From NCBI GenBank assembly GCA_003130845.1, contig QEXW01000022.1, positions 1 to 64,000 of the forward strand: a stretch of 64,000 bases of DNA, written 5' to 3'. Source of the DNA: Anaerolineae bacterium (GTDB taxonomy: Bacteria > Chloroflexota > Anaerolineae > Anaerolineales > Villigracilaceae). Shown piece after piece: positions 920 to 12,756 of the stretch. The notes under the pieces are model-generated. The model was given only the letters and a program-made list of their open reading frames with translations. It did not search any database and had not been told where the DNA came from. A program made the position numbers and the translations under genes. The first letter of the stretch is position 1. The number at the start of each line of letters is the position of its first letter.

Positions 920-935
920 GGTTTTCTGAAAAAAC

Positions 936-1056
936 GAACCAACTAACACTTTGTTTTTAGACACGGATGCACGCGGAAATTTCCTGGGCTTTCCCCGGAA
1001 AATACGCTTTTTGCCCGCGTTCATCCATGTCCAATCTTGAAACTGTGCGGTGGCTA
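936..1056 (+). repeat. MITE-like hairpin element, copy 1
   Basis: This 121-bp stretch fills most of the 301-bp gap between mgsA and the next gene. It matches, in inverted orientation, the element at 12396-12536. Shared landmarks in order are AACACTTTG, GACACGGAT, CTGGG, GGAAAA, GCTTTTTG, CGCGTTC and the end GGTGGCTA. It can fold into a long hairpin: GACACGGAT pairs with ATCCATGTC (8 of 9) and ACGCGG with CCGCGT. The left end is degenerate relative to copy 2. There is no coding capacity. The rest of the gap (1057-1220) shows only the ribosome binding site of the next gene. Confidence 0.7.
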
Positions 1057-1220
1057 GAAAAAACGAAACTTGATAAAGCCATACGCGCGCGGAGTCTTTT
1101 TCTGTGCGGGGGCGTTTTGAATACCAAAAGCCAATTTTAGGAAATTATGGTGATTGTGTGCTCATGATGCCAAAAGTATTATACATCTCAGCGTCATTTT
1201 TTTGTGACAAGGAGGTACAA

Positions 1221-11212: not shown

Positions 11213-11485
11213 AAAAACTCCCGTCCACTCATGGGACGAGAGCCAGAAACGCTCACGCGGTACCACCCAGATTCCTTCTGAAGAAGGCACTTAACGGGGA
11301 CGGCCTGAAGGCATATCCCCTGCCCCGATAACGCAGGGCATGCGGCTTGCTTACTCTGTTGGACAAGGTGCATTTCAGCGCGCGGCTACGGAAGGATTTT
11401 CGGCCTGCTTCACTGCTTCGGCTCGCACCCATCCCGAATTCGCTGACAGTTCCACAGACGTACTCGTTTCCATCATTGCCTTTGA
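11213..11485 (-). promoter_or_regulatory. T-box leader (tRNA-Ile sensing) with terminator
   Basis: Read on the minus strand, this is a complete T-box. It has a GATGGAAACGAGTA opening of stem I (about 11475-11460) and a stem-I distal region. The T-box core lies at 11273-11256 (AATCTGGGTGGTACCGCG). The terminator is CTCTCGTCC paired with GGACGGGAG, followed by TTTTTTG (11245-11213). Uncharged tRNA pairs with the GGTACC-type bulge and stabilises the antiterminator. The likely specifier triplet is AUC (11397-11395), matching isoleucine, but its assignment rests on reading the stem-I fold by eye. Most of the gap 11144-11526 is taken by this leader. Confidence 0.92.
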
Positions 11486-12306: not shown

Positions 12307-12395
12307 CTTGTTCCAAGACAGGTTTACCAAACCTGCTGTCTTAACAGAAAGCATACCCCACCCCAAACACGAAAAGCCGAAAACTAGAATAGAGC

Positions 12396-12536
12396 TAGCC
12401 ACCGGACAGTTTTAAAATTAGCCGCAGACAAACGTGAAAGAACGCGGACAAAAAGCCTGTTTTCCAAAGAAAACCCAGAAAATCTCCGCGTTTTCCGTGT
12501 AAATCCGTGTCCAAAAAACAAAGTGCCGGGTGGCTA
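12396..12536 (-). repeat. MITE-like hairpin element, copy 2
   Basis: A 141-bp element with imperfect terminal inverted repeats: TAGCCACC at 12396-12403 and GGTGGCTA at 12529-12536 are exactly complementary. Inside, AACGCGGA and TCCGCGTT form an 8-bp stem around GTTTTC / GAAAAC. It is homologous, in opposite orientation, to 936-1056. It lies between the NYN promoter and the SAM-riboswitch promoter without disturbing either. No open reading frame is plausible inside. Confidence 0.75.
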
Positions 12537-12582
12537 CAAAATATTCAGGCCCGAATTGTTTACACAACTTGCAATTTAACCC

Positions 12583-12655: not shown

Positions 12656-12756
12656 CTCTTATCCAGAGAGGCGGAGGGACCGGCCCTGTGAAGCCTCGAC
12701 AACCTGACCGCAAGGTCAAGGTGCCAATTCCGGCAGAGTAATCTGGAAGATGAGAG
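12656..12756 (+). promoter_or_regulatory. SAM-I riboswitch (S-box) aptamer
   Basis: The conserved S-box blocks are all present: CTTATC, AGAGAGGCGGAGGGAC, GGCCCTGTGAAGCC, CAACC, GGTGCCAATTCC and GAAGATGAGAGG. P1 is formed by CTCTTATC (12656-12663) and GATGAGAG (12749-12756). S-adenosylmethionine binding should favour the downstream terminator and shut off metY and metA. Confidence 0.97.

Follow-up and report, generated by a model that had tools for sequence, protein, structure and literature searches.

The two hairpin repeats found in the window (the whole stretch of 64,000 nucleotides analysed here) belong to a family that is a MITE, a small element moved as DNA. Each element is probably chimeric (probability about 0.7), comprised of a transposon outer layer and a hairpin core resembling the flanks of genes for GxxExxY proteins, a family of small PD-(D/E)XK nucleases. 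The MITE itself falls into a known class; what appears new is its chimeric build and the link to a nuclease. The core is made of facing arms of ~7-bp units, CRCNRAD, here termed stutter units, which are spaced about one helical turn (~10 bp) apart.

Copies in the window

Two diverged copies of one repeat, inverted relative to each other, had been proposed for the window by the original prediction. This was borne out, and both copies proved to be members of one dispersed family. The direct alignment of the two (A and B) scores 120, against a maximum of 37 among 1000 shuffles. Both are recovered by a profile built without them from 14 further copies in the genome; run against 10 shuffled windows, the same profile gives one match in total at E<=10. 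The features are as follows, the extents of A and B including the terminal repeats.

927-934, no strand: left flank of A, target-duplication site, decayed; 4 of 8 positions identical to 1058-1065
935-1057, plus strand: MITE copy A, 123 bp; left end decayed to CGAACCAAC, right end GGTGGCTAG intact; profile E 3.3e-23
962-978, plus strand: stutter units of the left arm of A, CACGGAT (962-968) and CGCGGAA (972-978)
1015-1034, plus strand: right arm of A, CCGCGTTCATCCATGTCCAA, shorter than that of B
1058-1065, no strand: right flank of A, target-duplication site
12395-12537, minus strand: MITE copy B, 143 bp, full length; ends GTAGCCACC ... GGTGGCTAG both kept; profile E 5.2e-41
12423-12449, plus strand: other arm of B, CGCAGAC, degenerate CGTGAAA and CGCGGAC, starts ~10 bp apart
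12484-12509, minus strand: left arm of B, three stutter units CACGGAT, CACGGAA and CGCGGAG, starts 10 and 9 bp apart

The left arm carries two stutter units in A and three in B, where it reads CACGGAT TTA CACGGAA AA CGCGGAG. The opposite arm of B is a weaker array, seen when any base is allowed at position 7; none of its three units is a strict CRCNRAD. Shared ends had been ascribed to both copies, and this held in part: only B has TAGCCACC / GGTGGCTA at its two ends, the left end of A having decayed. The intergenic siting of both elements was confirmed by the list of open reading frames and an Rfam search, A lying between mgsA and a lipoprotein gene (gene names by eye) and B between the NYN gene and a SAM riboswitch. 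Two riboswitches were identified in the window by Rfam, a T-box leader before ileS (11229-11485, minus strand) and the SAM riboswitch before the met genes (12656-12756, plus strand). The copies' own target duplications are decayed, with 4/8 (A) and 2/8 (B) positions in agreement, so that both look like old insertions; the 8-bp duplication described below was established from the family, not from A or B.

Ends, copies and target duplications of the family

Within its own genome (3.77 Mb) a BLAST search with B gave 33 matches at E<=1, of which 28, in 27 places, were at E<=1e-5. A is not among these matches and was recovered by profiles only; adding it to the 27 BLAST places puts the family in at least 28. 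Thirty copies were inspected, and the 14 without an end recognised by the set thresholds were left out of the duplication test, as was L027, which is the same element as L025. The 16 copies with both ends have terminal inverted repeats CTAGCCACC...GGTGGCTAG or near variants (the family ends are also given as CTAGCCACCTGACASTTT), measure 103-144 bp and contain no coding sequence.

Comparison of left with right flanks in these 16 copies revealed a target-site duplication of exactly 8 bp. Each of the eight positions has a flank identity of 0.69-0.81, compared with 0.38 and 0.31 for the positions bordering them; in all, 96 of the 128 duplication positions agree, a figure that none of 20,000 permutations reached. 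The duplicated target is AT-rich (74% vs 57% in the flanks), and the duplication is perfect in three own-genome copies. A TA or CTAG target duplication, which had been guessed from the ends, was ruled out by this position-by-position test. Since CTAGCCACC terminal inverted repeats are combined with an exact, AT-rich 8-bp duplication, the element was mobilised at the DNA level by a transposase that acted on these ends, and from the same repeats and duplication we infer that this enzyme is of the DDE cut-and-paste kind.

Relatives and empty sites

A family model built solely from sequence, with up to 21 candidates scored per genome, has matches at E<=0.01 in at least 69 of the 150 related genomes, some of the matches being partial, and full-length subfamilies sharing the ends occur in several genera. 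There is a recent burst in one relative, G069, which has 74 left ends as compared with 0 for a reversed-pattern control; the copies viewed hardly differ from one another, and in 13 of 20 the 8-bp target duplication is perfect. In G069, other hairpin elements of several kinds are nested in the MITE core at L142, L160, L175, L178-L180 and L187-L191.

Empty sites were found in relatives. The G069 copy L105 is absent from the sister genome G026, in which the alignment is continuous across the junction and a single target copy is present; G166 is likewise without the element at this site, in a less clean alignment. At L112 the MITE has inserted into another hairpin in G069, and G026 has neither. 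For A itself absence is seen only at a site whose downstream gene differs: at mgsA of the congener G002 the upstream gene is as in the window, the downstream gene is aminotransferase-like (names by eye) and no element was seen. The absence indicates that A is not fixed there, and syntenic fixation of A, the case that was to have counted against a mobile element, was not found at this one congener site examined. Taken together, the further copies, the 8-bp duplications and the empty site in the sister genome of a relative uphold the original prediction of a non-autonomous transposon.

Search for a transposase

No transposase with matching ends was found in these genomes, most of which are fragmented drafts. 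Left ends number 74 in G069 and 22 in G085, and part of these 96 were inspected in overlapping sets (30 ends, 15 per genome, plus 20 stretches and 31 copies); the inspected stretches are MITEs, nested MITEs and truncated copies. The end pattern led to no autonomous element in four genomes of one or two contigs, nor in all loci collected, and its occurrences in two viral contigs were judged by eye to be chance. Loci of PF01609, the sole transposase family searched, likewise gave no element with these ends in six genomes. A second type of MITE with the same ends is present in G069 (L172:270-445), its interior being a GAGTAGGCGGTGTTCTTCCGCC hairpin instead of stutter units. A search with this copy gave many partial matches: the L172-type query has matches in 75 of the 120 family genomes, in many cases over just a part of its interior.

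The family shares with bacterial MITEs, as non-autonomous derivatives of insertion sequences, its short length, lack of an open reading frame, terminal inverted repeats and many copies, as well as a fixed-length AT-rich target duplication and a recent burst in a relative. It differs in that a parent insertion sequence was not found and in that the same kind of core also occurs within other ends and in the flanks of GxxExxY genes.

Stutter arrays of the core

With the strict unit, the left arm has a chain of at least two units in 11 of the 16 own-genome copies and of at least three in 7 of them; the right arm is degenerate in this genome, no copy (0/16) having a strict-unit chain of two or more. 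In MITE copies of relatives both arms have at least two units in 34 of 40 cases (19/20, 9/11, 5/6 and 1/3). Control pieces of the window, 71 bp each, contain at least two units in 12 of 1802 cases and at least three in none of the 1802.

Cores of this kind are not confined to the MITE ends. Related cores without those ends are present in relatives, and gene-less hairpins of the same class lie inside other ends in G091, G016, G012 and others. These other ends are CTACCG(T/G)ACA, GATTACCTTACAC and TAGACGTTATCGG, making at least three further sets. For CTACCG(T/G)ACA, exact duplications of 8-10 bp occur in 10 of the 11 copies with both ends (from 15 stretches). The three sets resemble each other by eye and may be served by related transposases. 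A fifth kind of ends, GACTTACGCAAAA, encloses another unit class in G069. No ends were seen by eye around the hairpins L088-L090 and L094.

GxxExxY genes and their flanks

GxxExxY genes (PF13366/TIGR04256) are present in 120 of the 150 relatives, and inverted ~10-bp repeats, which fall into many classes, occur in almost all of the flanks inspected by eye. The unit CRCNRAD was derived from Anaerolineae loci and then tested on a wider set, the best 80 of 576 confirmed stretches from named genomes, which leans to the protein clade of the query. Six of the 80 loci had less than 200 bp on one side and were removed. Taking a chain as inward units 8-14 bp apart, 59 of the remaining 74 loci have one of at least three units on at least one side of the gene, and 36 have one on each side. 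As controls, the remaining open reading frames of these loci (100 codons or longer) give 12 and 1 of 263, and shifted windows of the loci give 55 and 0 of 2722. A class-free measure concurs (p 4e-28 and 7e-36), with 30 of the 74 loci exceeding both 95% limits. Outward chains of at least three units also occur at GxxExxY genes (20/74 vs 69/2722). The 74 loci are named to 15 phyla, 13 of which have chain-bearing loci; most come from metagenome assemblies, and some of the names may be wrong. In a second set, drawn from genome searches and stretches, 67 loci had enough flank; chains of at least three units are on either side in 44 and on both sides in 31, so that chains are weaker in this set (44/67) than in the wider one (59/74).

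The two flanks of a gene change together. Among 151 GxxExxY loci, 140 had at least one unit pair, 128 at least three paired units and 102 at least two on both sides; in 74 of these 102 the unit class is identical on the left and the right, where shuffling gives 25 at most. Unit letters also track the protein tree, which holds 127 loci with repeats of one locus left out, requiring 9-26 changes as compared with shuffled means of 24-48. In four genera a GxxExxY gene is placed between a glpK-like and a glpD-like gene (L297, L304, L311 and L312); there the units differ and both flanks shift together (by eye). From the linkage, the co-changing arms and the agreement with the tree we infer that GxxExxY proteins bind the units; linkage alone could be enough for part of the tree agreement.

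The core of the window copies was compared with the flanks of 36 loci from 12 genomes, a subset of their GxxExxY genes. The best match to the core of B is L317, a GxxExxY gene of the congener G002 with TTTTCTGGACACGGAACACACGGAAAACGCGGAG upstream, where 31 of 35 columns are identical. This resemblance of core to flank suggests that MITE and nuclease are connected. In G069, G085, G012 and G110, genes whose class is that of the resident MITE core rank 3, 1, 2 and 3 of 36. The gene in G012 is flanked by complete gene-less hairpins (by eye). The two GxxExxY genes of the own genome have other unit classes, with a best rank of 26 of 36 against the window core, and in G000 and several others the MITE is present and no gene of matching class was seen among the genes collected. 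A general agreement between the class of the resident nuclease and that of the hairpin, over 12 genomes, was not significant, the observed sum being reached by 1595 of 20,000 permutations.

The own-genome genes (both PF13366) are L031 (C18:265-612), which lies near a contig end within long inverted arrays of CACGAATG-type repeats, and L032 (C37:53708-54052), which lies between PurD and PurM domains in one open frame of 1081 codons and is preceded by an in-frame array of ACGGAT repeats. A pattern of fixed 10-bp spacing for the genome's own CACGAAT class gave no match; in L031 the unit spacing is 8, 10 and 12 bp (by eye).

The nuclease protein

The D...ExK set of the GxxExxY family is intact, the catalytic D, E and K being invariant in 19 and in 34 aligned proteins. 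The predicted model has a pLDDT of 93. By VIA-align its nearest solved fold is SSO0001 (4ic1; Z 9.6, 97 residues, 3.6 A), a Cas4 protein. Ranked next are a CinB chain from Wolbachia (Z 7.6) and Hjc, an archaeal Holliday-junction resolvase (1gef, 2wiw; Z 7.2, 83 residues, 3.3 A), both at Z values that may reflect no more than a common arrangement. No solved structure reached E<=0.001 in Foldseek, where Hjc ranked first at E 7.5e-3, and a sequence search against solved structures gave none at E<=1. The likeness to SSO0001 and Hjc is one of fold, with no sequence match, and shows no function for GxxExxY.

Proposed origin and meaning of a probably chimeric element

A role as RNA, which the original prediction had allowed for beside transposition, found no support. 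A and B do fold as hairpins, both are intergenic and B lies upstream of a SAM riboswitch, all of which would suit a fixed regulatory RNA, terminator or attenuator. Against this, RNAalifold on the 16 copies pairs the terminal repeats only (13 pairs, 2 with two-sided change), with an unfavourable covariation term (+0.51); neither A nor B has an Rfam match at gathering score, and neither interval has a terminator-like site, the one promoter-like site in each interval lying outside the elements. A structured RNA was rejected on these fold and covariation, Rfam, terminator and promoter scans, and with the target duplications and an element not seen at mgsA of G002 such a reading is highly improbable. 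A more plausible alternative is a plain MITE with a core that serves as filler, derived from a hairpin which once entered a transposon and kept no lasting link to the nuclease. The ends and target duplications fully account for the movement, the same ends also enclose the non-stutter interior of the L172 type, and in the own genome the nuclease genes mismatch the core and the right arm is degenerate. Yet the same kind of core is found in at least three other sets of ends, which a single accident does not explain, and we regard filler as possible and somewhat doubtful.

Gene-bearing and gene-less hairpins with common arms occur together in several genomes, and the nuclease has an intact catalytic set and predicted fold, as would be expected if GxxExxY itself spread the stutter hairpins and recognised the CTAGCCACC ends too. 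RAYTs, the model for such an arrangement, are HUH tyrosine enzymes. Distinct terminal repeats with duplications of 8 or 8-10 bp around the same kind of core point instead to transposases acting on the ends, no CTAGCCACC ends were seen by eye in the GxxExxY flanks viewed, and G000 has the MITE without a matching gene; spreading by GxxExxY itself is therefore unlikely. With REPIN/RAYT systems (PMC3116915, PMC8266576) the element has in common that hairpins without a gene are dispersed and resemble sequences next to the gene of a small enzyme; here the enzyme is a PD-(D/E)XK nuclease, the units are tandem at ~10 bp, and there are 8-bp duplications with terminal inverted repeats. Direct repeats inside a MITE are also described for Porphyromonas gingivalis in the accessible part of PMC4596501, where they form a minisatellite in contrast to the facing, phased arrays seen here, which resemble those of a nuclease family.

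The favoured chimeric build could have arisen when transposon ends took up gene-less copies of GxxExxY hairpins. Counting slightly against this build, strict units fit just one of the arms in the own genome. The stutter units would be putative GxxExxY binding sites, and the nuclease may act on a hairpin or cruciform, its predicted fold being near SSO0001 and archaeal Holliday-junction resolvases. Nuclease-driven recombination between hairpins, for example, could exchange cores among transposon ends. Since cores of one kind recur in several sets of ends, they are probably of some dispersal or selective value in themselves. More broadly, and with odds that lean slightly against it, GxxExxY nucleases and phased, facing CRCNRAD arrays might form one unrecognised selfish or housekeeping system of bacteria and archaea. 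In such a system the nuclease would read the units, the arms would be kept alike and gene-less hairpins would be satellites, which several transposon families of Anaerolineae would have taken independently as cores; the window MITE would be, or have been, a satellite of two enzymes.

The GxxExxY name, which carries no function, covers proteins of many phyla, and the shared unit, the co-changing arms and the gene-less hairpins offer a concrete candidate substrate. The MITE, in turn, serves as a natural experiment, with one kind of hairpin core placed in several sets of transposon ends. The family names (TIGR04256, PF13366) describe the protein only, while the gene flanks carry units of the MITE-core kind. 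In the literature searched, which includes few subscription papers, the accessible text mentions GxxExxY, PF13366, PDDEXK_3 and TIGR04256 in passing only, and six typical stutter strings are absent from it. Among the top matches listed from this literature for MITEs in Anaerolineae or Chloroflexi and for repeats with nucleases, none links stutter arrays to GxxExxY.

Occurrence of GxxExxY genes on mobile replicons and in operons

With one GxxExxY query, 50,697 phage records yielded nothing at E<=1e-6, no viral-contig match was confirmed, and 8 of 72,556 plasmid records matched. The family is not absent from all viruses, since a GxxExxY protein is listed for an algal virus in the accessible part of PMC12085832. 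In four genomes (L051, L053, L054 and L063) a GxxExxY gene occupies the same place in a pyruvate-dehydrogenase-like operon, directly after the upstream stop codon (by eye).
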